From Branchiostoma floridae (taxonomy: Eukaryota; Chordata; Leptocardii; Amphioxiformes; Branchiostomatidae), in assembly GCF_000003815.2 (NCBI RefSeq), contig NC_049995.1:10080223-10144222 (forward strand): a stretch of 64,000 nucleotides of DNA, written 5' to 3'. Within the stretch, counting starts at the first letter, position 1; every line of letters begins with the position of its first letter. The translations under genes and the position numbers were made by a program. Shown piece after piece: positions 25,101-63,840 of this stretch. The notes under the pieces are model-generated. The model was not told where the DNA came from and did no database searches. It saw only the letters and a list, made by a program, of their open reading frames with translations.

Positions 25101-28100
25101 ATACTTTTGTGTAGTGAGTGTTGTTTAATCATGATATTTTTCTTACTATCAAACGGCGAGTATTTCTACTACAAGTAAATGTACGAATGATTTCTTTATC
25201 TACAAGCAAGCGTCAAGAAAGAACAGTCTGGACACACAGGCAGTGTCTTCCCGTGTTCCTTGTGTTTGTTTTGGTTATTGTGATATGCGTGGACAGGCTA
25301 GATGTAAATTTATTCAGCGTTAATTCGTACGCGCATACCGCATGGGGCGCGCCTCCGTCTGTGGCCGGCATACTATACATACACAGCGGCTGTGTCATGT
25401 GATAGGATGTATCCAATGGCAGAAAAGAGTGGGGGGTTCAAATTTACCATAAGGAGCGGTTATTTTCCAGGCGCTCATTTGAAAAGTAGTATTGAAGAAA
25501 GTTTGGACCTGTTCTAACCCGCAAGTTGTGGCCGTGACACTGCTGTTTCCGCCTAGGACCCCCGGTGACGGAATTTGACGCAAAGATAGTAGGTGGCTAT
25601 CATTCTGTACAAGTTGATGTTGTTGGAAATCGACACAGATTGGGAAATCACGACCATTGTACCATCCGGATTAATAGAAGCCGAGACTGCAAGCTGAACA
25701 TGTTTCGCGTCCAAATAATCCAAGAGTCCAAGACCATCCAACAACACGAGTCATATCGGCCACTACTCTAGATCTTACCGGATTCTTATTCCTGTGGTGG
25801 CCAGATGGAACTGTGTGCTCTTTTTAACTTACGCCGTGACGCTTCGCCCGACACTGGAAATGGGACTGTGGACTTAGATGCTGCACGGAATTGCACAGCC
25901 GTTGTGATTGCTTCAACTGCCGACTACATCAGAATGATAGGCCACAAATACCTAGTAGGCTGTAGGTTTTTTTTTTACTTTTCCATGTAATGTTTTCTCG
26001 TAATTCAATAAAATTTCAAAGTTTCATCCATTGTATTTTCTTGCTTTAAAACGTGCTTATGATTAACTTTATCCCGCTAAAATGACACTTATCCACAACT
26101 TATAATCACCTTAATGCACACGTATATGAGACGTAGAAAGGGAACTTTAAACATGTCTTAAGGGTGTTTTAGTACGTATTTATGACAACTTTTAGCTGCT
26201 ATAAGGACAGATATAGACACATTAAAATCCTCTTAATGCGCATGTATATGAGACGTAAAGAGGCTTCAGAGAAGATAAAAGGGAACTTTAAACATGTATT
26301 AAGGGTGTTTTTATAAGTGTTTATGACAACTTTAAGCTGCTAAAAGGCAACAATACACATCTTATAAACATCTTAATGCACACGTATATGAGACGTAAAA
26401 AGACTTACGAGGAAATAAACGTGAACTTTAAACATGCCGTAAGGGTGTTTTTATAAGTGTTTATGACAACTTTAAGCTGCTAAAAGGGCATCAATACACA
26501 AATTATAAACATCTTAATGCACACGTATATGACAAGTATAAAGGCTTCAGAAGAAATAAACGTTAACTTTAAACACGTATTAAGGGCGTTTTAATAATCA
26601 TTTACGAAATATTTAAGCTACTGAAAGGCAACTTAAAAAACCGGAAAATACGGATCTATAAGCACCTAATAATCATCTTTACGCACACGTAAATGAGCCG
26701 TAACGATGTTTAAAGTTTTATGAAACTTAATATTTAATTGCAATTTAAATGAGTTTTGATAAACATTTACAACATCTTTAAGCTGCTGAAAGGCAACTTA
26801 AAAAAACGGAAAATACGGACCTATCCGCACCTATAAGCCACCTAATGATCATCTTTACGCACACGTAAATAAGCCGTAACGATGCTTAAAGTTTTATAAA
26901 CGTAATATTTAAATGCAATTTAAATGAGTTTTAGTAATTATTTACAACAACTTTAAGCTGCCGAAAGGCAACTTAAAAAACCGGAAAATACGGACCTATC
27001 AGCACCTACGTAAAGACTACGTAACGCCAATATTTACGTACTCGTATAAGAGATGTATAGATCCGTAAAGAAGGAAAATACGTCAACGTTAAGCATCATT
27101 TAAGCATGCTTAAATTCCGTTTTTCGTGCCGTGTATGGTTAGGGTCAGGGTTAGGGTAGTGGTTAGAGGCAACATTGCTAAGAGTGAATTTTAGGCGGTC
27201 AAACTTGGTATCATTACAACGGTATGTTGGTACAGATTTTTAATCTGCAAATTGTTCTGAAATCATGTGCTTACTTGCCAAGATATGACTTAAGCACTAA
27301 CCGCTAGGTTTAGGGTTAGGGTTAGGGTAGTGCTTAGAGGCAACATTGCTAAGAGCGTATTCTAGGCTGTCAAACTTGGTATCATTACAACGGTATGTTG
27401 GTACAGATTTGTAATCTGCAAACCGTTTTGAAATCGGGTGCTTACTTGCCGAGATATGACTTAAGCACTAACCGCTAGGGTTAGGCTTAGGGTTAGGGTT
27501 AGGGTTAGGGTAGTGCTTAGAGGCAACATTGCTAAGAGTGTATTCTAGGCGGTAAAACTTAGTATCATTACAAAGGTATGTTGGTACAGATTTGTAATCT
27601 GCAAACCGTTTTGAAATCGGGTGCTTACTTGCCGAGATATGACTTAAGCACTAACCGCTAGGGTTAGGGTTAGGGTTAGGGTAGTGCTTAGAGGCAACAT
27701 TGCTAAGAGTGTATTCTAGGCGGTCAAACTTGGTATCATTACAAAGGTATGTTGGTACAGATTTGTAATCTGCAAACCGTTTTGAAAGCGGGTGCTTACT
27801 TGCCGAGATATGAAACAACAACTTTGAACTCTTATGTCATAAATGATAACCTGACGAGTTATGCTTACTGAGAGACAAAGAAAACATCCCAATGAATTTA
27901 TAATTTAGAATTTAATAATTTAGACTTCACATATTATCCAGCCTACAGATGTTTGCGGCTATGCTGATTTGATTGTATCACATCCCCTAGATACCCCAAA
28001 ACTGATTAGAGCGTGGGAATAAAAAGTTGGGCAAAAATAGTTTCCTTTTTGGGGGCATATGATATACAGATTCTTCCCTTTGTTCTTTCACATATTATTC

Positions 28101-40000: not shown

Positions 40001-43000
40001 AACGTCAGAAAAATTTGCACATGTTTCAAACTTTCATGGTTTCTTAGCACTTTTACCTGCATCAAATTGACAATATAGTCCCAAAATTACTCGTTAAGTG
40101 TCACACATAGAAACCCTAAATTCAGGGTTAAAATAAGCATAAATCTTAATGCTTAAGATGCTAATGACTCTTGCTCCTTTCCTCTGGCTACTTGAGTCAT
40201 TGAGTCTAAAGGATAAGGCCTAGGAAAAAAAATGTTGAGTTTCCTGTTTCCCGACCGACCCTAGAAAAACCTGCCGACCCTAGACTTTTTTTTGGTCCCC
40301 AACGGGCAAGTAAGAATTTCCAGATGTGACCCGCTCAAATTACCACTGAGTGTGACAGCACATGGGGCTGAATACCTGCCTATATTGACCATGTCATTTT
40401 TAAGCCAGTAGAAACATCGATTTTGGATGATAGAGCCTGTCTCTGTCAATTTCTCCATAATAGGCGGTTGGAAAAGCACAAACACTAATTCCTTTGAAGT
40501 AAATCAAGGTGATCGTACAGTTTAGTAGCTAGGAAGAATTCCCAGATTTGCAGTCAGTGCCTCACCCCTGAGTCTGGCTGTCAGAAAAAATGTGTGTACT
40601 TTATTCTCAATGACCAGTTCATTTCAGTAAATATCTTCTGAAGTGAACCTGGCAGTCCAAACTGTTCTGTTGTGTCTCACTAGTATGGTTAGCAGGACAT
40701 TGTAATCTGAATGCTGTCTGATCAGTGCACGTGAAAGTCATTAAAATTTTGAAGTCAAGTGTACCAATATATTTGTTACCTTTTACTCTCATTGCATCAA
40801 GCATTGGTCAACACAGGAAAAGATAGGCAATAAGAAAAGTGAAAATTTATGAAAGTGAAAATACATAGAAAAATGTAATTTAAATTTCGGGCAAGTGAAA
40901 ATTTGGTTCTTGCAAGTAAATTTTTTATGTACTTGCCTGATAGGACAAGTGAATTTTTAAAAACTTATCTAACCCTGAGTTAACCAGAACAAAATGTATT
41001 ATATCAGATTATAACTGGGGAACTATTTCTAGCACGTTTTCTTTTTTTCCCCTGTCACTCCAATATTTTTCTTAAAAAATCCAAGAGCCAACAAATTAAA
41101 CTGGTGTAGCCTAAGGGTAAGATAAGATTATTATTTTTTGATAGCTTTTCATGTTATTTTTCTTTTACTAACATGATCAAGATGATAAAAGTTATATGAG
41201 GATGCTTTTCCCAATGTTTGCACCTTTTTTATGTCTTCTTTTTAAAAAGAGTTTGATGGGTTTGTTTTCTAACTAACATGATCAAGATGATAAAAGTTAA
41301 GTTAGGATGCTTTGCCCAATGTTTTCTACATTTTTCATGGTAACTCGCCTCAAGTTCCAAACAGGAAATACATGACTTGGGAGTTGTGTATACTGTTCCA
41401 CTTGTTGAGCTTGAAGGCAGACTGTTGGCCCCCGGTACGGTATGCCCAATTTTTTGTTGGCAATTTATATCCTTGTATAAGAGTTAGTTTGCTTTCCCTA
41501 AAGCAGAAGATGAAGATTATGAGCCAGCATACAATGTAAATGTACATTTCTATGTAACAAAGTGTATGGTTAGATGACATGGACACCACCACACTTTCCC
41601 AGCTTAAGAAATAATGCTTTTGGCCAATGTGTTGCCAGTTTTCAAGCCAGGTACCATGTCTAAAAAAAAAAAAAAAAAAAAAAGATAATCCCTACCTACC
41701 GACCCTAATTTTTTCAGGACTGAAACAGGAAACACAACATTTTTTTTCCTAGGCCTAATATAGTCTCATAGTATCAATAGCATTTTGGCAGCCATAGGGG
41801 CAGTGTGTTGTTGTCCACTATAGTACTATATATATAGTATGTTTAGGTCATGATATTGGAACTTCGATGGCAGAGCCCAATGCAACCCCCTCCTTCCACG
41901 TCTTTTTACTTCCCCAGCCGTAGATAGTTACCAATTTTTGGACCTGGGTAGAATGACTCCATGTGCCTTTTCCAAGGACACAACATCTAGCCAGAAATAC
42001 CGGGAAATGAACCTGTGATCTTGGGTCGGCTACCCTAACCACTCAGCCATACACTGCCATGATTAGTAGATGCATTTCAAATTTCTTGAGGTAAAGCTTG
42101 GCTAAGCTTAGTAATCTATACATGTAGTTGTAAAACTTGCCTGCATCCAGAAGAAAAACTTGCGGTTGGAAGACTTGAACTTCAGGATGAAGGCACGACC
42201 TGTGGTGCATTGTGGGACGCGCTTGTACTCACAATCGTCAGGGAAAATGATGAGATCCTGAAAGAGAAGGTAAGTTATTAATCAAACTAAAAATACAAAT
42301 ATAGTAGTAAACTTATTTATTACAATTTGAATACAAATGATTATTCACTGTGTTTTTTTTTGCCTACCGTGATGTCATTGTGATCGCTCATAAAAATATG
42401 TATTTGAATGGAATTTCATACTTTCCAATTACATCCATTCTTCAAACTTTGAACATTTTTTAAAGGATGGCGCTTTGTATACTACTGGTATATCTTTTCA
42501 TGCAAATATGAAAATACCTTGTTGCGCAAAGGGTAATCGCGCAAAGTACCATAGGCTTGTAAATTCTTTTCATAACTTTGGAAAAATAGCGTGTCCCACA
42601 AGTCAATCATACGCATATGCTTATGTTTTTATACGTCGACAGAAAAATATCTCTGCTTTTGGCAAGTCACACTGTGCCCCCCTCCCCCTTTCAACAGATT
42701 TTCCGTGACTCAGCCTTTTCATATCAACGTTCAAAATAAAAAGTAGCGAATTCCTTATCCTCGCATCGCCATGATCAAGACATCCTTGATGAAATAAAAC
42801 TTCATACTGTCTCAAGATGTTAAAGATTTTCTTCAAGGAATCAAATAAAGAAATCTTACATCTTCGACTGTGCCGCTTGTGCGATCCTTCCAACAGAAGT
42901 GCATGAGAGAGTCGTCGGTCTGGTGCAAGTACACGGTCCCCTTTCTCTTGTCCGCTGTCACCGTAGTCCCTTTTAGATTCATTTTCCCCGCCCGAAACTC

Positions 43001-43054
43001 CAGTAGATACTTACTACTGGACCGAGACGACGTCTGACCACCGAAAAGCGACAT
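34003..43054 (-). CDS. ADRM1: Proteasomal ubiquitin receptor ADRM1 (Rpn13)
   Basis: Ten exons: 42860-43054, 42141-42257, 39843-39984, 38224-38292, 37739-37844, 37062-37219, 36284-36384, 35791-35892, 34789-34891, 34003-34103. They total 1194 nt, or 397 aa (human ~407). The Pru domain is at ~1-126: [15 protein letters not shown], then [17 protein letters not shown] and [15 protein letters not shown], which in the family binds ubiquitin and docks on Rpn2 of the 26S proteasome. A Gly/Leu/Thr-rich linker follows. The C-terminal DEUBAD domain (~273-382; [19 protein letters not shown], then [18 protein letters not shown]) recruits the deubiquitinase UCH37. The protein ends DDDSMSLD. The donor after WMQ is GC, giving a GC-AG intron; the acceptor of exon 36284-36384 is a CAGCAG tandem that allows one Ala more or less. 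Introns carry several transposons. Confidence 0.97.
34400..34740. repeat. Imperfect inverted repeat in ADRM1 intron
   Basis: CAGGGCTCGAAATAC near 34410 is inverted as GTATTTCGAGCCCTG near 34725. Between them ACCTGCACCAG/CTGCACC phrases recur. This resembles a ~330-bp MITE. Confidence 0.6.
35690..35765. repeat. CT-rich microsatellite next to ADRM1 exon
   Basis: (CT)n and CTTT repeats lie about 30 bp from the donor of exon 35791-35892, on its intronic side. Confidence 0.8.
36053..36275. mobile_element. MITE family B, copy 2
   Basis: Inner phrases AACTTAAAACCACCGC and GCGAAATTAAATCC and the right end ATGCATTTACAG match 9586-9760. Its right end lies about 9 bp from the donor of ADRM1 exon 36284-36384, within the intron downstream of that exon. 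Confidence 0.7.
36420..36640. mobile_element. MITE family D, degenerate copy 2
   Basis: Shares CTGTCCATCACAATTAGC, GCAATGAGAGCATGACAATT-like phrases and the right end GGGATCAGTCTATTTT with 28402-28644. Confidence 0.55.
36870..37050. repeat. Two direct repeats rich in CCAATCAGAG
   Basis: AACCAATCAGAGAGCAGCAA...GTCAGACATA occurs near 36902 and again, with GCCAATCAGAGAGCAGCAAC, near 37019, about 117 bp apart. The second copy ends at the donor of ADRM1 exon 37062-37219. Confidence 0.7.
38471..39614. mobile_element. Foldback transposon with ~540-bp inverted arms
   Basis: The outermost arm sequence CACCCCCACCTAAC is exactly inverted at 39601-39614. The arms (38471-39009 and 39078-39614) pair nearly throughout around a ~68-bp loop. 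CTAAC at 38466-38470 and 39615-39619 is a plausible 5-bp target duplication. The outer ~150 bp of each arm is a degenerate C-rich minisatellite (TTCTGCTTNNCCCCC-like units), the inner ~390 bp non-repetitive. Mirror-image ORFs on both arms reflect the symmetry, not genes. It lies in an ADRM1 intron between exons 38224-38292 and 39843-39984. Confidence 0.88.
40217..41755. mobile_element. PIF/Harbinger-like element, family E, 1.5 kb
   Basis: Ends GGCCTAGGAAAAAAAATG and CATTTTTTTTCCTAGGCC are inverted; the similarity continues inward (GTTTCCTGTTTC and GAAACAGGAAAC). TAA flanks both ends (40214-40216 and 41756-41758). The interior has no transposase-like frame. An A-rich run is at 41661-41681. In ADRM1 intron 2. 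A shorter relative is at 45963-46378. Confidence 0.75.
41847..42055 (-). mobile_element. tRNA-derived SINE
   Basis: On the minus strand it starts GGCAGTGTATGGCTGAGTGG (an A-box of tRNA-Ser/Leu type) and has the B-box CAGGTTCATTTCCCGG about 45 bp later, followed by a ~150-bp non-tRNA body. In ADRM1 intron 2. Confidence 0.6.
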
Positions 43055-43460
43055 TTTCTGACCAAAACTTCGCAGAAATATCCAAAACTTTGTCAGACGA
43101 TTTTGTATCGTTCTTCGACCTGCGAAATCTCGCGATATCTCGAGAAGGACAAGTAATCTCGCGAGAGTTCGTTTCACCTCGTTCCCAGAATTTTACGTAA
43201 AAATATAACTTTTAGTCATCATATATCATATCAGTAGAAAATTATGATGATTTTCGTCGTCATAAATGAATATTTATTCGTAATTTGCAATATTTGTTGA
43301 ATAATAAATGTCATTGTGAAAACTGATTGGTACTGCATTCTGGGACGGAGAACTCGTCCCTAGGGTAGTCTGAAACGAAGAAGAACTGAGAAAAGTGTGA
43401 GGAAAAAGTCGGCTGTTTTGCGACGCGTCGCAAGGTAACCATGACAGAAATGTTCCTAAT
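43055..43460 (-). promoter_or_regulatory. ADRM1 promoter with TCTCGCGAGA box
   Basis: The perfect palindrome TCTCGCGAGA is at 43157-43166, about 100 bp before the start codon, with a second partial site (TCTCGCGAT) near 43128. In vertebrates this CGCG box, bound by BANP, marks housekeeping promoters and is often bidirectional. ADRM1 and GID8 diverge here, so an untranslated first exon of GID8 may start in this region; I cannot see it directly. Confidence 0.6.
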
Positions 43461-44030
43461 TTACTACTTGTGATCTTCTCTGAGATGTTTGACATGTTCT
43501 TAAGATGGTTTTGTTCAGTGTAGTGCGTTTTGAAGGCGACAATTTGATAAACAATTCGGGTGGTTGGAGACCAAAGAGTGTTGGCAAGAAAGACGCCCCC
43601 CTCCCCTCGCAAAAAAAAAAAAAAAAAAATGCACTTAGCCAAGTCAACCCATTACTTCTCTGTGTCAAGATCTATATTCATACTATCATAGTAGAAAGCT
43701 CTTCATATCCAGGTTTACGTTATTATCCTTTAGATTTAGAGCCAAAGATCTATGTGGTATAAAGGTATAACTATAAAGGACAACATCCATGATAAAAAAT
43801 GGAACTACAAAATTTTGGGATATATAGGAATTCTTTTACACCACCAAATTGATTTGTACTCACTTTGCTTTTGATGTATCTCAGACACCTTCCTCATCAG
43901 AGCTTCTGACTGGAGTTCTGCTTCTTGCCGCTATATGTTTGCAGCTTGTACCTTTTCTATGATAGTATGGGTACGGGGTGTGATAAAAACTGTTGTGTCT
44001 TGAGACAGTTTATCACTTACATTATGCAAA

Positions 44031-45660
44031 CGCTGTGGCTATTGACACACTCAGTGTGCCAATAGCCAAACAGGCTATTGACACACCGAGATGCCAGTCA
44101 GCCAATCAGAGCTTGTAACATGCCTTTCCGGCAATATTTTACACAAGCAATAGTTGATTAGACATTGTTCGGAAGATTAGACATTGGAATCTTTGAATCT
44201 TGGAATGAACGGACGTATTCAAGTTATGCCCTACATTTGGATACCTAATAATACAGCCTTCATCGTGTATGTATGACGTAGCGTAGTGGATAGAGCGTTG
44301 ACCCGGGAATTCATGATACCAGCTCCGACCCGGTTCGAGTCCGCGCCGGAGTTTAATTAATTTTTTTTTTTTTCAATTTTTCTTGTCCCTTTTTAAACAT
44401 CCATTTGATATAAGAATATATATAAACAACTTTTAAAGTTTCTGTTAACAATATAAACCAAAAATAACACTGACCACAAAACATGTCATAATTTTCGGCC
44501 GTGTGGTTCCGGCGCTATCGGCAGCGACTCGGAAGAATATTTCTTTCACATTAAAAAGAATGGAGGTAAAACAACAACTATAACTTCGCTTCCTTAGTGA
44601 TATAAGTTTTGAGGCCGAAAATTCTCCAATATGGCAGGAATTCGTCGGTAAACACAGCTGAAAACGTGTTCCTAACCGATCCAATATGGCTGCCATGATC
44701 ACATGCGGTGACAGTAAAACTAGCACCCTATATGATAGCAGATTCCGATGTTTAAAATTGTGCCGTAAAGGTTCCGGTTCGGAATTTCAAGTGACCAGAT
44801 ATCGAAGTAGTCCCTAAAAATAAGACGCAAATTAGGGGTTGTCTCTATAGTTTTGGCTCTAGATTTTCCGGCTATCGCTTTAGCAATGTATAATCTTTTA
44901 TACCTCTGCAAATGCTTGTTGTTCGTAGCGATTTATGGTGTCGGAGATTTGATCGTGCGGCGAACACTTCCTGGTATTAGTGCGCGCGATAGCGGTAAAG
45001 CGTTTCGTCGCCTGATTACCCAGATCGTGCGTTCTATATGCGTTTTGGGTGTTTTAGCGTCATCGGAGCTCACGGAAAACGTATCGGATAACTTTTTTTC
45101 CTTTTTACTCAGTATACAGAAGAAGTCTTGACCTTCATTGCCATATTAGTCATTATCCCAGGAAAACTCATTTTTACCGTGTAGCGGCCTGTAAAGAATG
45201 GCCCTAAATTAGCATTTTTTGGGTGAAAAGCTTATATTTTTGATGGTTTTTACCAAAAACAACACTTCTACAGAAAATGTCAAATGAGTCTGTCGGTCAG
45301 CGACAAGGCACCCTTTTGTATCGGAAACATTGAATTGTCCGAAAAACGATGTTTTGAGAAGCGCTAGTGCTTTTTTCAGAGACAGTCAAATCGGCCACGA
45401 TTCGTAAAAAAAACTCCGAACCGGAACCTAAACACGTGAAAAAGATCGTATTTTGGGTTGATAATGGACACAGGACGCCATTTGTATTTTTCAGAGTGTT
45501 GATTGTCAAATGTAATCGTAAGATTTCCTCATTTTAGTGGTTTCTATCACTGGGTGTGTCAATAGCCTAACAGGCTATCGACACACTCAGTGTGCCAATA
45601 GCCTAAACAGGCATAGCCTGTTAGGCTATTGACACACTGGGTGTGTCAATAGCCTCGCTC
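44031..45660. mobile_element. 1.6-kb element with palindromic ends
   Basis: Both ends carry GGCTATTGACACACTCAGTG-type palindromes (44037-44090 and 45549-45654; more than one hairpin at each end). The 9-bp TTATGCAAA flanks the pair (44022-44030 and 45661-45669). The interior has open frames on both strands but no domain I recognise. Confidence 0.5.
44272..44368 (+). repeat. tRNA-derived SINE head
   Basis: GTAGCGTAGTGGATAGAGCG resembles an A-box arm and CCCGGTTCGAGTCCGCGCC a B-box arm, followed by a run of twelve T that would terminate pol III. It is nested in the 44031-45660 element. Confidence 0.55.
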
Positions 45661-45962
45661 TTATGCAAAACCAAGGAGGTTCCTTGGCAAAACAATTAAA
45701 CAAATGGACACTACTGTCAGTTACATACTGGAAATCGTAAAATGTTGTTGGAGACTGGAGAGCACTGATTCATAATTTGCAACATGCATGTATGGGCCAA
45801 GTTCTTATGCCACAAAGCCCACTTTTGCGGCCGTGCACAGACACAACAATAATCGCAAGTGCTCGTGGAAGGCTGCAAAGCTACTCTCAGGGACCTTTAC
45901 CTTTGACTTGGGCATGCACGGTCGTATCCGTAAATTGGCTAATTGAATATTCAGTGAAAGAA

Positions 45963-46378
45963 GCCTAGGAAAATAATGTTGTGTTACCTGTTGCCATGCC
46001 TACGCTAGAAAAAACCGCTGTCTCTTGAATTTTTTGGGTGGGCAGTGGGGTCACTTAGTTTCCAGTTTTTTTTATTTAGTCCGTTCCTGTTCAAGTAGAT
46101 AAAGTTCAAAAACTGTTTGTCCTATTTTAATGAATCGCTGAAGGATAAATGTATCCACAGATCTGTTACGATCATGCACAAAATTAAAGCTTGACATTGA
46201 AAATATATAATTGTACTTATGTACATTTGTAGTTCAAATTTACTAAGTTAAAACTGTATTGTATTCACTAGAGATCTGAAAAAAAAAGATTTTAAAAAAG
46301 AAGATTATCCTTACCTACTGACCCTTACTTTTTCAGGACTGACACTTCGGGAATACAACACTTTTTTCTCTTGGCCTA
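45963..46378. mobile_element. Family E element, short degenerate copy
   Basis: Left end GCCTAGGAAAATAATGTTGT and right end CAACACTTTTTTCTCTTGGC resemble the ends of 40217-41755; internal CTACTGACCCTTACTTTTTC also matches. It ends just before the repeated GID8 start segments. Confidence 0.55.
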
Positions 46379-46396
46379 GAACTTACACACAACCAT

Positions 46397-46986
46397 ATGT
46401 GTTCTAGCTAGAAGCCCATCCTATATTACACCGCTATTCTAGGTACAAGCATGAGTTTCACTGAGAAACACGAAGAGATCACCAAACAGGATCCATGAAG
46501 AATATTCAGTAACTAACGTATGATCGTATGTGTTCTAGCTAGAAGCCCATCCAGTATTACACCGCTATCCTGGGTACAAGCATGAGCTTCACTGAGAAAC
46601 ACGAAGAGATCGATCCATAAATCCTCTTATTGAATATTCAGTAACTAACGTATGGCCGTATGTGTTCCAGCTAGAAGCCCATCCAGTATTCCACCGCTAT
46701 CCTGGGTACAAGCATGAGCTTCACTGAGAAACACGAAGAGATCACCAAGCAGGATTCGTGAATTAGTTTATTGAATACTCAACAAATAACACAAAACCAT
46801 ATGTTTTCCAGCTAAAAGCCCAACCAGTATTACACCGCTATCCTGGGTACAAGCATGAGCTTCACTGAGAAACACGAAGAGATCGATCCATAAATCCTCT
46901 TATTGAATATTCAGTAACTAACGTATGGCCGTATGTGTTCCAGCTAGAAGCCCATCCAGTATTACACCGCTATCCTGGGTACAAGC
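46397..46986 (+). repeat. Four tandem copies of the GID8 start-codon segment
   Basis: A ~131-141-bp unit containing a possible acceptor (GTGTTCCAG/CTAGAAG), ACACCGCTATCCTGGGTACA and ATGAGCTTCACTGAGAAACA has start codons at 46451, 46582, 46714 and 46855. The fifth, at 46987, opens the real gene. The four extra ATGs read 10-13 correct residues ([10 protein letters not shown] or [13 protein letters not shown]) and then hit DP* or DS*. If transcribed ahead of the true start they would be upstream ORFs; if spliced individually they would be dead first exons. Confidence 0.88.
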
Positions 46987-49900
46987 ATGAGCTTCACTGA
47001 GAAACACGAAGAGATCACCAAACAGGAGTGGATGGACAGGCTCAACTCCCTCCACATCTCCCGCGCAGACATGAACCGACTCATCATGAACTACCTTGTG
47101 ACCGGTGAGTTTTCTTCCGGCAGTTCAGGTAAGGACGTGGTAAAATGGTGGTGGAAAACAGCGGTGGAGTTTGCAGGGTTTAGGACATGACAGGGTCAGG
47201 GAGCCTTTGGGGGTACGGTGACTGTTCTATGCAAAATACTGTGAATGCTCGGTCAATGCTACATTCAGGAAGGCATTGTCTGCATATTATGATAATAAAT
47301 TTAAAGTATGCTGCCTTTGTTATTTGTTTTTTTTGTAAGGCCATGTTGATTTGATTATATGGATGACATCCGCGCTCGCACCAATTTTCGGCCATTTCCA
47401 AAAAAAAAAAAAAGTTTTAGACCACATACTGTGACATAGTAAATTGTGCAAAGCAGCTGTAAAATGAGCACAAATATTCCATAGACTGAAAAAAAAGTAT
47501 CAAAAAATCGATAACTGATGCCATAGAATGCCAAAATAAATCTCAAAAGTCAAAGAATAAGATGTGAAAGGACAGAAAGAAAAAAAAGTATTTTTGGTAG
47601 GGGTTTGTACATATGTACCAGTAAATTCAGGATACGTCCCGTTCAGGTCCAGAGGATCATTTCCAGGTGGACGTGAACCTGGACCTGATTGTCTGTGGAA
47701 ACTTGAGAACTGATAATACTCAAAACAATGGTAATTGGTCAATTTTGCTACAAAGGAATCTCTTTGGTGGATCATTGGACTACCATTGGCATTTTAAAAT
47801 CCCATCTTCATGTAGTAAAGGCTAACTGTCTCTGTACCTTTGCCTGTAGAAACTTGGTACAAGTGACTATAACCTCTACTCACTTCGCTTTTGGTGTCTT
47901 CTTTGCCCGGTAAGACCCCAAACACCCGCCGACATAGTGTGTCCATTTTGCAATTGGCTAACCCTGTTCGTCTGATTTTTTTTTTCAGGTCTGTTTATTT
48001 CAGATTGGTCCAAGAAGAAAAAAAATGTTTTGCACCCGTATGATGTACTGGTCGCAACATCTAACTGTTGGTATACCATACTATGTGTTTGTAGTCCTAT
48101 GTTCAACCTTCCTGGCCACATTGATTTCATACTGAAGCCAACTTTTTTTTTTGGCCAAACTTTTTTTTTATTCGCTCGCTCGCATCAATTTTGGAGTTCC
48201 CAGAGGATGTCATCCATATAATCAAATCAACATGGCCTAAAGCCAAATTCAGGCACCCATTACGGTAGACGTAAATGCACTGTTAACTTTGAGCTGTCCG
48301 ACTCTTAGGTAGTAAATTTCCGATATGGCAGACATGCAACAGAATACAGTGTGGTGTGCACAGAAAACATTTTGATATGAAATAGGAATGGATTATACTT
48401 TCTTTGTACATTTGGTAATTTTTTGGTGATACAATCAGCGTTCCCGCCAGGTTCTTGAAAGTATGCGTCCAAATATTCGGGAGGGGCGTAATGAGCGCCG
48501 TAGGCGCGAGACGGGTGCCACAAGCGCTCGCATTCTAGGGGGGTCCGGGGGCATGCTCCCCCGGGAAAATTTGGATTTTCAAACCCTCTAGAACACAATT
48601 TCCTACAATTTCAGAGGATAATCATGCACTTGAGATTGGATGTCGGTTGCCTCTTTTACTCCCATTTTCAGTTATCGACGACCACCCTCTTCATCAAAAT
48701 ACGTTATATTAAAAAAACTATAAGCACAGGGAATCAGCCTTCCGTGATATGGCCCGGGTATTATTTGTCCAGACATGTCTGTATGAAAATTTTGGATTTT
48801 TGATGCTTCGAAACAGGGCTCTAGCCAATTCGTCAACCCATGGAAAAATTCTGCCAATTTTTTCTGTCATTGTATTAAAAAAATGTCTACCTCGTGCGAT
48901 CGATGTTGCGACCTCCCGCATCAAATAGTTTTCCGAGACGATAAAATAACGGCACTATCACACTTTGTGCTTTTTTTCTATTATGCCCGATGATTTTACT
49001 CCAATTTTTCGAATCGGTGGGCTTTTACAAGGCCTTGCCGTCATTTTCCACGAGCGTGCGTTTGTTTCCTGCGACCTCAGGTAACCCCGTTTTCGGCGTG
49101 AAATCTTTGGCTGGATTTCTTTTTAAATAGACCAAGAACGTTATACATTACTCGAAGGAGGACGATCTGCTGCCTCTTTGGCAGTGATCAGTGTCGGTGT
49201 AGCCTTGAAGCAGTAGCCAGAAAGACGTCCCAACGTGCTGGGCGCTGCGATCGACGGTCCATCTGGGGAGGGGGGCGTGCCGCGCCATGTGCCACGGAGG
49301 CCAACGCTAGTGCACAGCCGACTCGATCGACGCTTGACAACAACATTGCGGCCCCTTTTCTGTCGCAAATTTTGTCTTTTTGAAACAAAAGATAATTTGG
49401 AAATAAGAAATAAAGTGTATAGTTTTGGATTCTTCACTTATTTACTGCGCACCGTCTTTTAAACTTGGATAAGTGGGAAAACTTTGATAGTAAATTGTTA
49501 GCAGCTGCAGCTAGGTAAGGAACTCAAGTTTCCAGACGACATGGGCGGCTACCAACGTCACGTGTGCTAGTACTCGGTAACTTTTGTTTTTTTTCCCGGT
49601 GACCAATGACAGAGTGTAACATTACATTTATCAAACGCTGATTGGTTATTAAGATGATTGGATTTGGACCTGGTGGCCAATCTAGACTGCTTGGCGCCGG
49701 CGGCTTGTTGTCAAAGATACCGACTGCCAATCAACTGCCCACAGCGTGAGAACTTTTGTTGAGATGTACTCGCACAAAACAGTTTGTTTGTTCAATACTA
49801 GTATTACCCACAAATCTTTAACAATACGTGAAAATGAGCTAGGACAAGTAAGTATCATGTTAATATCAGAATATAAAATCTGCAAAAGATTTCTTCGAGT

Positions 49901-52900
49901 GTTAAAGAATGCTGACTGTCAGATGTATTTCACGGACTAAAAAAAGTTACATTGCGCAACGGACAGCTCAGACTGGCGTGTGGCTGGTTATGTCGTACAT
50001 GGGTCCGCTAGTTGTAACACGTGCCGCGCTCCGTCCCATGTCCAGACTACTGGGATGACCGGAAAGTGAAGAATTTGAAGTATAAATTGTAAAGGTAGGA
50101 TTCCTTCTAATAAAGACAGATTTTTTTAAAGATTCCAGATACATTTTGTTAACTGGTGGTACAGGTCAGCCTTTGTTTCAGATTTTTTATGGACGCATTC
50201 AGCCGAACCGAGTGCGTCTTTCCAGAAAAAAATGCGTCCAAAGACGTAAAGACGTATGCCTGGCGGGAACGCTGGATACAATACATGGTTGCCCTCTACG
50301 ATACCCACAGATCCAACAGATCTTAAATTGGTACATGATAAACAAGTTGGTCTCAATGCAGAAATGACTGTAGAACAGGGAAGTTGTGTGCTGTTTGTCT
50401 TGCTGATGAATATTCATGAGTTTGCCTTATTTGGCACAAGCCAATCAGCTTTACCCAAAGACAATGTTTTAGGCAATTCTTTGCATCTCCAAGAGTGTTA
50501 TATGATTGTATCAAGAGATAACATGCACCAAGCAAGAAATTAATATTCAGAGTAAATACATACTTCAACGGAGTTAATCCTTTAGTATGCCTGCAAACTC
50601 CTACCTTGTTTTCTGATTAATTTTGATGGTGACTACTAACAATCCCACATCCTTTTTCAGTTAATGTCTTGCATTGTATGTTTTTTTGGCAATGCCTCAG
50701 GGGCTAGCCAAATAGTATGTTTTATGTCTGTTTATTATAACTGTGTAATGTGTATTGTATACTCATACTGAAAGAGGTTGTTGTCAATTTTGTGTGTCTG
50801 TTCAATATTTATGTGGTGTTTCATAATGAACAACACACATTAAAACATTTATTCTCCTTCATTCATTAGAAGGGTTCAAAGAGGCTGCGGAAAAATTCCG
50901 CGTGGAAGCTGGAATTCCGATGAACATGGACACGGAATCCCTGGACGAGAGAATAAAGATCCGAGACGCCATCCAGAAGGGGGAGATAGAAGAAGCCATG
51001 GCATTGGTCAACAACCTCCATCCTGAGTTGTTAGATGATAACAGATATCTCTACTTTCATTTGCAAGTAAGTTTTCTCCTATAACCTAATATGTAGACAG
51101 TGTAAATTACTGTAATTACAGTAAAATGCTTGCCACAACAACTGTCCCTACTTACTGTAAATCCTGTTCACACTAATGACAGTTCTAATTTTGCAGTGAA
51201 CTCTTCACCAGAAATATGAGTATCCAATGTATTACTAAATACAGTAACTGTACTATATACAGAATAGTTTGAACAAGTTTTAAACACTTTAAAAAATTCC
51301 CTTTCCGTCCTTCTGTGAATTAATAGCACTGCAAAAGTAGATGAATTCACATGTTTTTTTGTAAGTATTGTTGAATCAAATGTTTGGACACTAAATGTGT
51401 ATCTAAAGAAAGAGAAAAAGACATGTTTTTGATATGCCGGTAATAGTACACACCAAGTTTTCATTGTTTCTTTCTATGATAACTAACTGTGGCTCATTAT
51501 AAGATGTTGATTGATTGACCAATGATAGTACTGTAAGCTACTAATCTAATTTCCTCTCGACCAATCAGCAACAACATCTGATAGAACTGATCAGGAAGAA
51601 AGACGTGGAGGGAGCACTGCAGTACGCACAGACACACCTGGCAGAGAGAGGGGAGGAAAACTCTTGTTGAAAATGTTGGGATTGATCGACCAATGATAGT
51701 ACATAGCCACTAATCTAATTTGTTCTTGACCAATCAGCAACAACATCTCATAGAACTGATCAGGAAGAAAGACGTGGAGGGAGCACTGCAGTACGCACAG
51801 ACACACCTGGCAGAGAGAGGGGAAGAAAACGCGGACGTTCTGAACGAACTGGAGAAAACGCTCGCTCTCCTGGCATTCGAGAACCCGGAGGATTCTCCGT
51901 TCGGCGAGCTGCTTCACCCTTCTCAAAGACAAAAGGTGGGGAAAGTGTCAAAGTAATATTTTTATATACACAGTTTATCCAATTACTGTAAATGCATTTA
52001 AAGTGTAACTGAAATGAAATCGTCTGTAGCATTTTCTACCAATAATGTAAAAATTTGATCTTTTCTAAAAAAGTCAATGCAAGTTTCAAATCAATTGTCC
52101 GTCCGGAAGTCCCTCAAACAGCGACATAAAAATGTGTACTCTGAGCTCTTTGCTGGAACTAATTAGGAACACGCCGTGACGTCATTTTAGTTAGTCCCTA
52201 CTAGCTGGTATGGTTGACTAGGGGAATAATGTACATTTGATAGACCCGTATCTTATAAAGGAAACATAATTCATTGACGAAACTCGGCACGACTAAAGAA
52301 CACATACTTCACTTCACTTGAAGGGAATTTCGTTCGTATTCACGCCACTAAAATATATCTTAGAGGCACTTGAAGTTGATGCACGTACCAAGCGTGCGTA
52401 ACGCAAGCGGGGAGAAAGTTCATTATTGTAGCGTGTAGAATGAGCGGGGATAAACAACCATCGCTTCTTCTATACACAAATGATAGCATGAGCTTACATT
52501 ATCCTCAGTAAGGAGGCCATGCTGTACATTAATTTGAAGATGTTTTCTAGCGGAAGCGCAGAAGTTTGTGCCTCTTTGCGGTCTCCGCTTGTGCCTGCTA
52601 GCAAAACCGGGACTAAAGCTTCGGTCGCGTACAAATATACAACAGCTGAGCAACTAACTACGTACAGTTCGCCAGGATTTAAAATGAGAAGCAACCTCAT
52701 TGCCACAAGAAATGCGATTCAAAATACATTCCCACTCAAAGTATGTGTTTGTTTACAAACCTGTAAGCTTTTATCGGATAGATAGTACGTCGTAGACTGA
52801 CTATTTCTAGTCGTGAGCACGGCCGATAGCTAGCTAAACGCCTCCAGATTGTGACGAGTCCGTGAAACATTTTGAGAGTGACTGTTCTTTCTGTCTCATA

Positions 52901-55900
52901 TTTGTCTGCACAACAGACAGATTTCGTAAGCTCCCAGTGATTCGAGGAAAACACACAGACTGGTGTTTCCGTGATAGAAAATTCGAAAAGTGTGGTTAAA
53001 TAATAGCGCATGGCACGGGGCCGCCATTTTTTTGTGAGGAATTTTTCTTTGTTGTTGACGACGAAAAAGCCAAGATTCACTCGTAACTAGGTTTTACGGA
53101 GACCATATCAGTACTACATATCAATGCTACAATATTCATGACAAAATCTAGCGACAAAAGTGCCAAGTTTGTAGCTACACGAGCAAAAAAAACGAGTTAT
53201 CGATGACATAGTAACGAGTACGTACATGCTTGTGGTCCCGCAACCCAGATATATTTTCCTTTGTTTACATGCTCAGGTTACGCTAGAAGTTTTTATACAA
53301 AACCAAACTATTTTAACTCACCTATCAACAACATGTCCACCGCTAAGACACTACACAACAGACAGATTTCGTAAGCTCCTAGTGATTCGAGGAAAAACAT
53401 ACAGACTGGTGTTTCCGTGAAAGAAAATTCGAAAAGTCTCAGGATTTTAGCGCACGGCCGCCATCTTTTTGGGGGCCATTTTTCTTAGAGTTGTTGTTGT
53501 TGACGACGAAAAATCCCAGATTCGCTCGTAACTTGGTTTTACTGAGACCAAGAACTACAATATTCATGACAAAATCTAGTGACAATTTTTCCAACGTATT
53601 TTGAATACGGTCAGCAAATTTTCGTGCTTGAAAATCTTGGGACAGCGTCGTTTGTTGTTACGAGTTCGGTATAAGCGGTTCACTTTGTTATGAAATCTAT
53701 CCGGACGCCGACAAAGATGTAAAATCCAAGAATCATTTGTGCTGTTTTGTGTCGGAGTCTAAGCGTACAAGTACTTCACAATAATGGCACCGCAGTTATG
53801 ACCAGAATAAGCGAAATACAAGGTAAATTTACAGGGCGAATTACTACTAGTATGTGACAGACAAACGTCCTGCAGCTGTGATAAACTGTGGCGAATTCAC
53901 CCTTCTCCGCGCGTGTTCCGTGACTGGGGCACTTTGAGTCGGCAGACCAGCGGTGTCAATAGTTGAAACTTTTCCTGCGATAATCCTTCTGGTCCTCCCA
54001 CAGCTCTCCCCAATATAATCTCAAGGTTCATGTTGAAGCACGAGGGCTCGAAGTGTGCGGAGCTCGAAGTGTGCAGAGCCGTAGATGTCGCGGAAGGAAC
54101 CATGCCGATGCCTCTGAACAAACTTGATACATAATTTTGTCTGTTTTCTAGCTCGCTGAGACTCTCAATTTGTCAGCCACAGTTCTGTCATTTTTAACTT
54201 TGGGGAATCTGTGCATAGATATCCCCTCGGTAGACTGACTATTCTTACAGCTAACGCCATGTGGGCCTCCTGCGACACAATAACTTCTACTGGACTTTGT
54301 ACTAACACGACCTGTAGTACAAGACACCATTACAGCGGACGGGGGTAGAGCTACTACAAGAACGCGACTCTCTAAAATGACGTCATGCATATCATTTGAA
54401 TTCGCCCTCGGATGCCCCAAGTCGCACTTTTTGAAGACGTTTTAACATTACTTCCCGACCGAATTATCACATGAAAAATATTTCAATCTAATAGCGAGGA
54501 AATGATCCTCTAGATCGTTAAAAAATAAATTGTATTCAATTGTATTTCTGCAAGTCTTTAAGTTCGCGGGGATTTAATTTCGCGGTAGCGGGAAAAAGGA
54601 CTTTTCGCAGTGGATTTAAGTTTGCGGTAACACCATAGACTGCAGTCTAATACCATAATAGAAAAATGTTCGCGGTGGTTTTAAGTTCGCGGTAAAGTGG
54701 TCACCGCGAAAACCGCGAACATTAATCCACCTCGAATGTTTCTGCATTTACAGTATTGTAAGTACAGATGAATTCAGTAAATTGCACAACAGATTAACGC
54801 ACAATTCTTTTAACTGCATGGAATTCCAAAATCCCAAACCAGTGCGTTCTAGCTGAATAACCTCCCATTATTGCACCAGCAGGATAATTGCACAAATTAT
54901 GGTGGCAAATAGGCCGTGCAATTAAGCCGCTTCTACTGCTATGCCAATACTACATACATGTACATGGAATTTGTGGCTGTTTGAGCAATGAGGACTAGTT
55001 TGTTGTTATGATTATTTTTTTCATCTTTTTAAATGGAAAAGATCAGTTATACAGTCAAACCTGTACAAGCTGCTACCAGTACCGGCTCTACATAAGGACC
55101 ACCTGGCCAACAGGACTTTTTTTTAGATAGTTTATCCCATTGACACAAGCTTTATGAACCCTGTCCATAGTGACTATCTGTCCACATAGACAAGATTTTA
55201 TTGGTGTCCTGTGTGCTCTTTTAGGGCAGTTTTGACTGTTTATCTTAAATTTTCTGCATATCTATGTAAAATATAAATCAATTTGAAACAACCAAACCAA
55301 AATATTGTTACAAGTACAGTCAAACCTGCCCGAGCGACCACCTCTTCTTAGTGACCACCTGGCCATTTCGACCGCTTTTTCTCGGTCCCGATTTATTTTC
55401 CCATTGATGTAAGCATTAAGCGACCTTTTCTCAACGACCACCTGGCCAACGCGACCGCGACCGGCCCAAATTGGGACCCATAACGACCGCATCATTTTCA
55501 AAATTGAGGTTTTCATCGATTTTTTATGATAACTAGCGCGATTTTGTGTCGAAATCGGCCAGTTTGCGTCGGATTTTCGGGTTAAATTTACAGTTTACAG
55601 TGTGCGTGTTGTATTTGACATTAAAGACCTCGCTTCTTTGCGTGCGTGCAGCGTGCTTCCTATTTGCCATTAAACACAACGGAAACCATTTATACTTTGC
55701 ATCGGTCATGTTTTGAGTCGATACTCTTCTCAGCGACCACCTGTCCAAATCGACCGCTTTTTTCCGGTCCCTCGTGTGGTCGTCTTGGGCAGGTTTGACT
55801 GTAGTATGTGGGTAATACAAGTTATAGTGAATTGGTTCTTGAATCTCTGACATTAAGAAAGATAATCAATTGCAATTTTTTTTCTGTTTGCAGGTTGCGA

Positions 55901-56067
55901 GTGAGCTGAACTCGGCTATTCTAGAAGTAGAAAACAGAGAGTCTACCCCAAAGCTGGCTAACATGCTAAAACTCTTACTGTGGGCCCAACATGAACTGGA
56001 CCAGAAGAAAGTCAAGTACCCACACATGACAGACCTAGCCAAAGGAGACATAGAAGACCCCAAATGA
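46987..56067 (+). CDS. GID8: GID8, CTLH ubiquitin-ligase complex scaffold subunit
   Basis: Four coding exons: 46987-47104, 50870-51066, 51738-51935, 55894-56067. They total 687 nt, or 228 aa, the same length as human GID8 (TWA1, C20orf11). Residues 1-24 precede the LisH motif (~25-57; [18 protein letters not shown]). The CTLH domain is ~63-120 ([20 protein letters not shown]) and the CRA region runs to ~212 ([20 protein letters not shown]). The C-terminus is [17 protein letters not shown]. In the family the protein holds together the RING subunits and substrate receptors of the CTLH/GID E3 ligase, in nucleus and cytoplasm. The start at 46987 is the last of five copies of the start segment and the only one leading into the full frame. 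Exon 3 has a truncated twin at 51569-51670. Intron 1 holds a Harbinger-like MITE and a hAT element. The 3' untranslated region may reach AATAAA at 57823. Confidence 0.96.
47339..48237. mobile_element. PIF/Harbinger-like MITE family A, copy 2
   Basis: Ends GGCCATGTTGATTTGATTA and its invert, flanked by TAA at 47336-47338 and 48238-48240. Very similar throughout to 2377-3210, with an extra inverted phrase near 47640-47690 (AGGTCCAG...CTGGACCT). In GID8 intron 1. Confidence 0.85.
48436..50274. mobile_element. Non-autonomous hAT element with 8-bp target duplication
   Basis: Inverted ends CAGCGTTCCCGCCAGG (start) and CCTGGCGGGAACGCTG (end), with further paired phrases (TGCGTCCAAA inward). Perfect 8-bp duplication GATACAAT at 48428-48435 and 50275-50282. 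The duplication length and CAGNG ends are diagnostic of hAT. I see no BED-finger or hATC-like frame in the 1839 bp, so it depends on another copy. In GID8 intron 1. Confidence 0.88.
51504..51672 (+). pseudogene. Truncated tandem copy of GID8 exon 3
   Basis: A 169-bp unit is directly repeated (next copy from 51673). It contains the intron end with an intact acceptor (CGACCAATCAG) and 33 in-frame codons of exon 3 from 51569 ([20 protein letters not shown] and on), then SC and TGA at 51668-51670. No donor follows. If spliced from exon 2 it would give a 138-aa protein with LisH and CTLH but little of CRA, or trigger nonsense-mediated decay. Confidence 0.8.
51945..54545. other. GID8 intron 3, left part
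   Basis: There is a direct repeat: CAACAGACAGATTTCGTAAGCTC, GTGATTCGAGGAAAA, CAGACTGGTGTTTCCGTGA and GAAAATTCGAAAAGT occur at 52911-52996 and again at 53354-53440. Otherwise I see no coding or RNA signal. Confidence 0.55.
54548..54757. mobile_element. MITE family B, copy 3
   Basis: Contains TTAAGTTCGCGG, GCGAAAACCGCGAACATTAA and the right end CTGCATTTACAG followed by TA. In GID8 intron 3. Confidence 0.75.
55053..55237. mobile_element. Degenerate MITE with CAGTCAAACCTG ends
   Basis: Left CAGTCAAACCTGTACAAGC and right GGGCAGTTTTGACTG are inverted; internal GGACCACCTGGCCAACAGG matches the larger relative at 55317-55801. Confidence 0.65.
55317..55801. mobile_element. Tc1/mariner-type MITE with CAGTCAAACCTGCCC ends
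   Basis: Ends CAGTCAAACCTGCCCGAGCG and its invert (CTTGGGCAGGTTTGACTG), flanked by TA (55315-55316 and 55802-55803). Internal GACCACCTGGCCAA phrases repeat. In GID8 intron 3, about 90 bp before the last exon. Confidence 0.8.
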
Positions 56068-60850: not shown

Positions 60851-61019
60851 TAGACCTCAGAATATTTTGTATATCCACAACTATGAGTGGACTAGCCCCT
60901 TGCTGTAGCGATTGCACAAAGCTGTGTGGTCCAGGGGCTTTGAATTGATGATGGGAGCTACCATAAGCACCAACTACAAACTTAAACTTTTCAGTTTGAT
61001 GAACTCCTTCCCATAGCCA

Positions 61020-61503
61020 AGCTACCACCATCCTGTTCTACATGTACATGTTAGTTACTGAGGTTAATATGGAGTATAGTGTGTGAGAGAGTGTCGGACC
61101 TAGTTGTTTGGATGTATCAAAGATTTCTCGGGGTTGCTGGTGTCTATACTGTCTTGTCCTGAGCGATGTTTTTCACTGGTGTTTTCACTGGTGTTTTTCA
61201 TTTTGACAATGTCCTTCCCATAATCAAGCTACCACCATCCTGTTCTACATGTTAGTTACTGAGGTTAATATGGAGTATAGTGTGTGAGAGTGTCGGACCT
61301 AGTTGTTTGGATGTATCAAAGATTTCTCGGGGTTGCTGGTGTCTATACTGTCTTGTCCTGAGCGATGTTTTTCACTGGTGTTTTCACTGGTGTTTTTCAT
61401 TTTGACAATGTCCTTCCCATAGCCAAGCTACCACCATCCTGTTCTACATGTTAGTTACTGAGGTTAATACGGAGTATAGGTAGTGAGTGAGAGAGTGTGA
61501 GAC
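61020..61503 (-). pseudogene. Two tandem partial copies of the IAH1 terminal exon
   Basis: Downstream of the IAH1 stop, the segment from ...ATCGCTCAGGACAAGACA through the stop codon and flanking ~90 bp is repeated twice (about 61020-61215 and 61220-61425). Relative to the real exon both copies lack the same 34 bp, a deletion between short GACAG repeats. That shifts the frame and ends it at once. The shared deletion means one copy was made from the other. Confidence 0.85.
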
Positions 61504-63613
61504 CTAGTTGTTTGGATGTATTAAAGATTTCTCGGGGTTGCTGGTGTCTATACTGTCCCAGTGGGGGAAGATGAAGGGGAGGTGGTCTGTCTTGTCCTGA
61601 GCGATGGGGGAAAGGCACCGGGCGAGAAACTGGCTCCCCTCCCTCGAGAGGTGGAGCCCGTCCGAGAGAAACTTACGCCAGTCCTGGAACGAAAAAAACA
61701 AATTCTTTCAGTTGTCATTAAACATGGAAGAAGCCTCCTTACTTGATACCTTGATAAAAGGTAGAGTTAGATATAAACATTGTATCCATAGCACTGCCTG
61801 CAAAACTGAATATGTAAACATGCAAACATTTGATGGACATGCAGCCACTCTCTGATTGGTTGAACTGATAATTGCCATGCTGTCATTGGTTGAACTGATA
61901 CTAATTGTGATGGACAGTCAGGATCAGTCTATGTTCTAGCTTTGCTGTAACAAGCCCCTATACATAAGAAGGGAAAGAAAAAGAGGGAGAGAGAGAAAGA
62001 CAAGCAGGAAAAGAAAAAGAGGGAGAGAAAGAAAGACAAGCAGAAAGATGGAGAAACTGAGAAAGAGAGAGAAGTAAAAAGAGCGAAACAAAGAAAAAGG
62101 AAAAAGCTGGGAAAAGAAGGAAAAGCTATAAAGAGGAAAGATAGAGGGAAAACAGAAAGGAAGGAAAGAGTGAGAGAAAAAGAGAGAGGGCAGGAGACGG
62201 ACAGAGAAGATGGAAAGAGATAGAGATATGGTCGGAGAGATGTACAAATATAGTACAATTACCTTCTCATTCTGCATGTAGGTGTACAGGTCGACACACG
62301 ACGTCTGTTTCTCCACTGCCACCTCACAGCACATCTTAGCATACTGCCCAGTCACTGCATTCAACCTGTTCAACTTTAAACCTGCAAATCACAACACAAA
62401 AGGTTACATAATACATGATATTCAAAGTCCCACTCAACTCAGACAAAGTGTTGCACAATGCCACTTGAAAGACCTTCTGAAACCAGTAGGAGATTTTCTT
62501 TATATATCCAACAACAATATTGTAGTATTCAATTGACATAATTAATTGTAATGTTACTGAGATGATTGTGATTTGCAGGTCAAAAATAACAGTCAAAGCT
62601 GATTGGTTGATAGTATCACTTCAGCACCAAGGAGAGCACTGATTGGTCAAACCACATCACTTCAGAATCAAGGAGAGTACTGATTGGTCATGCCACATCA
62701 CTTCAGAACCAAGGAGAGTACTGATTGGTCAAATCACATCACTTCAGAACCAAGGAGAGTACTGATTGGTCAAATCACATCACTTCAGAACCAAGGAGAG
62801 AACTGACTGGTCAAACCACATCACTTCAGAATCAAGGAGAGTACTGATTGGTCATGTCACATCACTTCAGAACCAAGGAGAGTACTGATTGGTCAAACCA
62901 CATCACTTCAGAATCAAGGAGAGTACTGATTGGTCATGTCACATCACTTCAGAACCAAGGAGAGTACTGATTGGTCAAATCACATCACTTCAGAATCAAG
63001 GAGAGTACTGATTGGTCACCTCACATCACTTCAGCACCAAGGAGAGTACTGATTGGTCAAATCACATCACTTCAGCACCAAGGAGAGTGCTGATTGGTCA
63101 AATCACATCACTTCAGAATCAAGGAGAGTACTGATTGGTCACATTGCACCAATGTCCAATTTTTGTGTTGGAAATTGACTTCTACCAACACAGATGAACT
63201 TTTCAGGGTTGTGGAATGTAAAAGAAAATTATGGATAAACTAAACTTTAACTTACAAACACTACAAACAAATTTTCAGCTGACTACATCAGCCTTGTTCA
63301 CAAAATGGACGCGTAACAGTAGCTTTTGGGGGTAAGTCCTAACTAATATTTGTAATGTTGGTTAGTTTAAGTTTAGTTTATTCATAATGACCTTTAAAGA
63401 AAATGTTGTATTTTGGTTTTATCAAGTCTTGAAAGATCATAAGCTCTCCTTACCTTTTTCTTTACAAACCTTCCTCCACTCAGCCTCATCCAGAGGAGGG
63501 GGGGTGATGAGGATGATCTTCTCTGGACCGATGCCCTGGCCCTGGAGGTAGTGGACCATGTTCCTGAGGTTGTTCTTGTAGGTTTCCAGTGGTACATGTT
63601 GTTGTGGGTTTTC
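61504..63613 (-). CDS. IAH1: Isoamyl acetate-hydrolysing esterase 1 homologue, 3' part
   Basis: Three exons in the window: 63454-63613, 62263-62381, 61504-61683. They total 459 nt, or 152 residues plus stop, in consistent phase. They correspond to roughly residue 97 to the end of the ~248-aa human protein. ENPQQHVPLETYKNNLRNMV and ILITPPPLDEAEWRKVC are followed by KLNRLNAVTGQYAKMCC, VDLYTYMQ and SDGLHLSREGSQF. The last contains block V of SGNH/GDSL hydrolases, with the catalytic Asp and His of DGLH. The nucleophile Ser (GDSIT) and the GAND block must lie in exons beyond 64000. The family hydrolyses small esters in the cytosol; the substrate in chordates is poorly known. Short direct copies of exon pieces surround two of the three exons. 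Confidence 0.93.
61850..61942. mobile_element. MITE family D fragment
   Basis: Inverted relative to 28402-28644: TGATACTAATTGTGATGGACAGTCAGGATC then AGTCTATGTTC. One terminus only. Confidence 0.5.
61968..62245. repeat. GA-rich low-complexity tract
   Basis: Purine-rich AGAAAGAGGGAGAG repeats beside IAH1 exon 62263-62381. Ser/Leu/Phe-rich open frames on the other strand are artefacts of it. Confidence 0.9.
62598..63145 (+). repeat. 41-bp minisatellite with CCAAT-box core
   Basis: About thirteen copies of a 41-bp unit, TGATTGGTCA...ATCACTTCAGAA...CAAGGAGAGTAC, in an IAH1 intron. Each unit contains ATTGG, an inverted CCAAT box. Units alternate between AAATCACATC, AAACCACATC and ATGTCACATC variants. 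Confidence 0.93.
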
Positions 63614-63840
63614 CTGTAAAAATGGGACAAAGGTCAAATGTCAAAGTTCATGCTAAAAAAAGTTTCCAGTGGTATATGTTGTTGTGGGTTCTCCTCTGAA
63701 AAAGGGTCAAAGGTCAAATGTTAAAGTTCATGATGATGAATGGTACAAAAGGGACATAGATATTTAAGTTGCTGAGGTTGGTTTAGTAGCTGCACAAAAT
63801 GTAGATTTCCAGAGGAACAAACTGTTGTGAATTCTCCACT
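63580..63840 (-). repeat. Three direct copies of an IAH1 exon edge
   Basis: The first ~35 bp of exon 63454-63613 (encoding ENPQQHVPLET) recurs at about 63661-63697 (ENPQQHIPLET, with a TTTTTCAG acceptor) and, more diverged, at about 63804-63840 (ENSQQFVPLE). Only the acceptor-proximal piece is copied. Confidence 0.75.

Follow-up and report, generated by a model that had tools for sequence, protein, structure and literature searches.

The GID8 gene of the lancelet Branchiostoma floridae begins with the last of five tandem copies of its own start-codon segment, in a window of 64 kb (the whole stretch of DNA that was analyzed). What is this array: a device that controls translation, a set of dead first exons, an error of assembly or a repeat of a kind already known from this animal? 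In amphioxus, the name “mirage” is given to minisatellite-like duplications that take in the end of an intron and the beginning of the exon after it; published examples are in Adh3, globins, troponin C, and PGBD5 (PMC3087553; the available part of PMC3902484). Here, we report that the GID8 array more closely resembles an ordinary mirage than a switch dedicated to controlling translation.

Methods

Repeat units were delimited from the sequence by repeat search (Tandem Repeats Finder) and direct comparison of the copies. Control duplications were collected at 85 loci of four Pfam families (9, 25, 30, and 21 loci) in the same genome, and were counted when tandem, at least 35 bp long, at least 75% identical, and overlapping the matched interval by at least 10 bp. 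For the acceptor matrix, 14 of the 85 exons were dropped because of an in-frame stop; candidates were available for 69, and 61 entered the matrix. The donor matrix used 60 of 71 sites.

Array structure and origin

GID8 has four coding exons here that encode 228 residues. Pfam recognizes LisH and CTLH domains in the protein, and its alignment to a chain of solved structure (glucose-induced degradation protein 8 homolog) runs over the whole length, starting at residue 1. The five units at its start (Table 1), spaced 131, 132, 141, and 132 bp apart, cover about 630 bp and form an array that is beyond chance. Tandem Repeats Finder called it twice, at 46392-47016 (period, 132; 4.7 copies; score, 869) and at 46396-47027 (period, 273; 2.4 copies; score, 1006). 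The first-pass annotation was correct in that all five ATGs open the same ten residues, that copies 1 to 4 end early (TKQDP, DP, TKQDS, and DP before the stop) and, by direct comparison of the copies, that GID8 continues only from copy 5. The array is a tandem repeat of more than one unit inside a gene, with diverged copies; its unit includes part of a coding exon, and copy 5 is kept as the one complete authentic copy.

Each unit consists of an AG, then 43 nt, then the ATG. An AG does precede each copy, as had been noted; the full acceptor motif proposed for all of them (TTCCAG followed by CTAGAAG) is exact in copies 3 and 5 but reads TTCTAG in copies 1 and 2 and TTCCAG followed by CTAAAAG in copy 4.

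Table 1. Features of the array, of GID8, and of the sequence upstream (window positions)
Feature	Coordinates	Strand	Description
Candidate promoter region	44001-45500	.	CpG-rich; observed/expected 1.00-1.46 in 500-bp windows starting 44001-45001
Tail element	45926-45955	+	30 nt, single copy upstream of array; 25/30 identical to tails of units 2 and 4
Unit 1	46396-46526	+	Acceptor-like TTCTAG; ATG 46451; 15-residue mini-ORF to 46498; donor-like GTATGN in tail
Unit 2	46527-46658	+	Acceptor-like TTCTAG; ATG 46582; 12-residue mini-ORF to 46620; donor-like GTATGN in tail
Unit 3	46659-46799	+	Acceptor-like TTCCAG; ATG 46714; 15-residue mini-ORF to 46761
Unit 4	46800-46931	+	Acceptor-like TTCCAG; ATG 46855; 12-residue mini-ORF to 46893; tail like unit 2
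Unit 5 (authentic)	46932-47104	+	Acceptor-like AG to 46943; GID8 ATG 46987; donor after 47104 (CCG/GTGAGT)
GID8 coding exon 1	46987-47104	+	From ATG; within unit 5
GID8 coding exon 2	50870-51066	+	
GID8 exon-3 upstream copy	51509-51677	+	Intron end plus about 93 nt of exon; 2 mismatches in first 93
GID8 coding exon 3 (authentic copy)	51738-51935	+	
GID8 coding exon 4	55894-56067	+	With stop codon

Copying in multi-unit steps, an earlier proposal, is borne out: the best segment at a 273-bp shift, 46527-46754, has 6 mismatches, of which 2 lie after 46550 (in the last 204 nt of the two-unit gain), and this near-identity supports a two-unit step well. Copies 3 and 5 share an identical stretch of 140 nt around their acceptors (46551-46690 and 46824-46963). 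The two tail types that had been described hold for copies 2 and 4, which are alike, but copies 1 and 3 agree only over the first ~20 nt past the common part; the tails are mosaic, as that of copy 1 then switches to the type of copies 2 and 4. The units have 85 columns in common. Variation is seen in 9 of the 55 that precede the ATG and in 1 of the 30 from the ATG on (Fisher p = 0.09), which in this small sample is a trend toward extra conservation of the coding part that falls short of significance. The single coding change among units is synonymous (AGT/AGC).

The similarity of the tail element to units 2 and 4 reached a score found in 0 of 1000 shuffles; for units 1 and 3, the values were about 0.015 and 0.009. 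Judged by this likeness, the element is a possible source of the founding junction, which we infer may have joined the middle of the exon to a site some 470 bp before unit 1, with the intervening sequence then lost. A dispersed repeat as the source of the tail was rejected: in a search that skipped very common words, the query 45890-46010 matched itself and gave three partial matches, all at query positions 71-121, outside 45926-45955.

Splice signals and candidate promoter

Acceptors of units 1 to 5 scored −1.3, 0.3, 5.9, 6.1, and 5.9 with a small matrix (61 sites) that places the acceptors of GID8 exons 2 and 3 (3.4 and 2.2) below every training site; units 3 and 5 thus score above both exons. 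The putative intron-exon boundary of the unit reaches 5.9 to 6.1 in copies 3 to 5 and is low in copies 1 and 2. Two AGs that precede the array and are not part of the repeated unit (exon starts at 46337, score 8.1, and 46380, score 7.2) exceed the repeated AG, and the copies may therefore lie in the 5′ UTR; if either AG is used, all five copies do so, and the array duplicates no intron-exon boundary. The donor after 47104 scored 9.1 and the donor-like GTATGN sites in the tails of units 1, 2, and 4 scored 6.3 to 7.4 (20th to 37th percentile of the 60 sampled donors). Across the window, 7% of all GTs reach the 5th percentile of sampled donors, so donor-like sites are common by chance.

Observed/expected CpG is 0.53 to 0.73 over the array, and the contrast with the CpG-rich stretch above it (Table 1) weakly suggests a promoter upstream. 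The hint is weak because other windows are also CpG-rich, with starts at 42251-43251 (0.94-1.56; about 42.3-43.7 kb) and, inside a GID8 intron, at 48251-48751 (0.95-1.21). Short GGCTATTGACACAC-type direct and inverted repeats at 44037-44106 and 45537-45657 flank the stretch of Table 1 and are possibly the ends of a mobile element.

Other duplications in the window and the genome

The window holds three exon-end duplications, two of them in GID8, where the boundary in the start exon is putative. The second GID8 duplication (51509-51830) lies across the start of coding exon 3. Splicing to the AG of its upstream copy (exon start 51569) leads to a stop after 138 residues and yields no whole protein, so this copy must be skipped, with an acceptor of 1.5 against 2.2 for the authentic one. 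The third duplication (63582-63732) is at the exon start of a minus-strand gene, which we take to be an IAH1-like esterase; the exon starts at 63613 and its upstream copy at 63695 (acceptors, 10.4 and 8.1, respectively), and Pfam gave no match for a 54-residue piece of this exon. A 199-bp tandem repeat (2.7 copies, 61005-61557) adjoins a possible exon of the same gene. Two further tandem arrays, 20901-22599 (about 171/348 bp) and 27137-27813 (171/354 bp), have units that contain TAGGGT-type, telomere-like runs.

Across the control loci, which are not independent of one another (L066 and L075 overlap), 9 of 85 Pfam-matched exon intervals overlapped a tandem duplication versus 32 of 501 shifted ones (Fisher p = 0.17). 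The six sets of shifted positions (5/84, 6/84, 7/84, 5/84, 4/83, and 5/82) were each below the exon count, and removal of the nine globin loci, which had been fetched as positive controls, left 7/76 against the same pool (p = 0.33). Duplications hit exons no less often than the sequence around them, but the excess is not significant, and the idea that duplications specially target exons was rejected. Proteasome matches make up five of the nine touched intervals (L066, L067, L075, L080, and L083; three on contig C156), and the duplication matches at L062 (78%) and the longer one at L075 (75%) are weak. In coding orientation, the duplication spans the match start at L010, L066, and L067 and the match end at L006, L055, L062, L075, and L083, and it lies inside the match at L080, so copies on the acceptor side are not the rule. 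At L010, a globin exon is preceded by three extra copies (spacing, 154, 158, and 158 bp) whose acceptors score 8.6, 14.7, and 12.7 against 12.7 for the last copy, so one upstream copy outscores it; L006 has a 157-bp duplication at the exon end. From spacing and place, we infer that these two are the published BflGb6 and BflGb9 mirages.

Interpretation

We consider it likely that the GID8 array is a mirage minisatellite, a mutational structure of which copies 1 to 4 are removed with the first intron. The observations behind this are the geometry of the repeat, mini-ORFs that are cut short, a fifth copy that is intact, and the near-identical two-unit blocks; the like anatomy of published Branchiostoma mirages supports it, as does the exon-3 copy, which has to be skipped in the same gene though its acceptor scores close to the authentic one. 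The duplications recovered at L010 and L006 also speak for it, as do the acceptors of copies 3 and 5, which outscore those of GID8 exons 2 and 3. The higher scores of the AGs at 46337 and 46380 and the poor acceptors of copies 1 and 2 count against it. In the proposed course of events, tandem duplication affected a segment that ran from the putative 3′ intron end ahead of the start exon through the 43-nt leader and the ATG to the ninth codon after it, together with a short foreign tail. The array was then expanded and partly homogenized, with at least one two-unit step, presumably by unequal exchange or conversion. Transcription would start upstream, perhaps in the CpG-rich sequence at 44.0 to 45.5 kb, and a putative noncoding first exon would be spliced to the last acceptor, the one that belongs to the sole copy with a full exon and a strong donor. 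Copies 1 to 4 would leave with the intron, their ATGs untranslated, and the array would be tolerated because the last copy stays whole, not because of any function. Copy number would be expected to differ between haplotypes, and the array itself is most likely inert.

It is rather unlikely that the array instead stands in the 5′ UTR, through an exon start at 46337 or 46380 or through unspliced upstream transcription, and that its four AUGs lower GID8 translation while reinitiation over the gaps passes some ribosomes. Such an arrangement would agree with the five start contexts, which are identical from −9 to +5 (copy 1 differs at −10), with mini-ORFs that are short and lie 83, 93, 93, and 93 nt from the following ATG, and with the stronger AGs above the array. 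By arithmetic, however, leaky scanning alone past four equal starts leaves 6% (at 50% initiation) or 0.8% (at 70%), a heavy cost unless reinitiation is efficient, which counts against it; moreover, the two-unit gain was tolerated, and the constraint on the mini-ORFs (1/30 versus 9/55) is not significant. The authors who described other mirages also conclude that splicing is undisturbed, from Adh3 data and globin RT-PCR, which suggest regular splicing (PMC3087553); lancelet PGBD5, Adh, and troponin C have been viewed likewise (available part of PMC3902484). The control device that the first-pass annotation had raised is thus unsupported, as coding conservation shows a trend without significance and the anatomy is that of published mirages.

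Splicing might also include upstream copies in part of the messages; this would either lengthen the start exon in the upstream direction or, through the tail GTATGN of copies 1, 2, and 4, lead straight to exon 2 and give a dead message. We regard this as unlikely, on mixed evidence: the acceptors of copies 3 and 4 score about as high as that of copy 5, the tails carry the donor-like sites described above, and the globin paper allows that mirage copies could serve as cryptic splice sites, but the real donor is stronger, sites of this quality are frequent among the GTs of the window, and RT-PCR of globin mirages suggested regular splicing (PMC3087553). The suggestion of competing dead first exons is possible in part, given the acceptor scores in copies 3 and 4 and the donor-like sites that copies 1, 2, and 4 carry in their tails, but the low acceptors of copies 1 and 2 speak against it. 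That the copy number was inflated or collapsed by merging two divergent haplotypes is very improbable. One globin mirage was aberrantly assembled in the genome draft (PMC3087553), and the chromosome-scale B. floridae assembly, presumably that of the window, was made from Sanger shotgun reads with haplotypes merged by HaploMerger2 (available part of PMC7269912), so the copy number is that of one haplotype or of a merger of two. Against an artifact, the copies differ mutually at several sites, the array is short (about 630 bp), and a whole-genome DNA search gave one place.

On the mirage interpretation, what is new is a case whose duplicated exon end includes the start codon, the kind itself being known in amphioxus. 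As the window of 64 kb contains three duplicated exon ends, including two in GID8, the choice of the last among near-identical acceptors becomes testable. We think it distinctly unlikely that a start-codon mirage sets a variable number of identical AUGs before GID8, a conserved gene for an E3-ligase scaffold, and that the output of the gene thereby varies between individuals, or even cells, according to how many units the message retains; were the copies present in the mRNA, they would form a copy-number-dependent translation brake that had arisen by mutation alone.

Comparison with known systems

Yeast GCN4 is an example of a message controlled by uORFs. The GID8 array resembles messages of this type in having several short ORFs before the main ORF, with gaps of 83 to 93 nt; GCN4-type messages are regulated via their uORFs, whereas the GID8 mini-ORFs are known here from DNA sequence alone. 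A literature search for uORFs in the 5′ UTR of GID8 found nothing, and the available part of a huntingtin paper mentions tandem repeats without mention of mirages (PMC2206037).

The closer likeness is to the globin mirages. BflGb6, with six and three units in two haplotypes, and BflGb9, at the other end of exon 2 (PMC3087553), are likewise tandem copies of an exon end and its flank, and their unit lengths (150-160 and 157 bp) are similar to those at GID8 (131-141 bp). As in BflGb6, the GID8 copies lie upstream of a complete authentic exon, and as in the published globin mirages, the units bear signs of homogenization. Unlike in those mirages, the intron-exon boundary at GID8 (AG to 46943) is only putative. 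The 60-bp and 108-bp repeats of lancelet PGBD5 differ in that the available part of their description mentions no start codon (PMC3902484). Unlike in BflGb6, BflGb9, and Adh3, the duplicated exon part of the GID8 array includes the start codon, and each copy therefore carries a complete mini-ORF.
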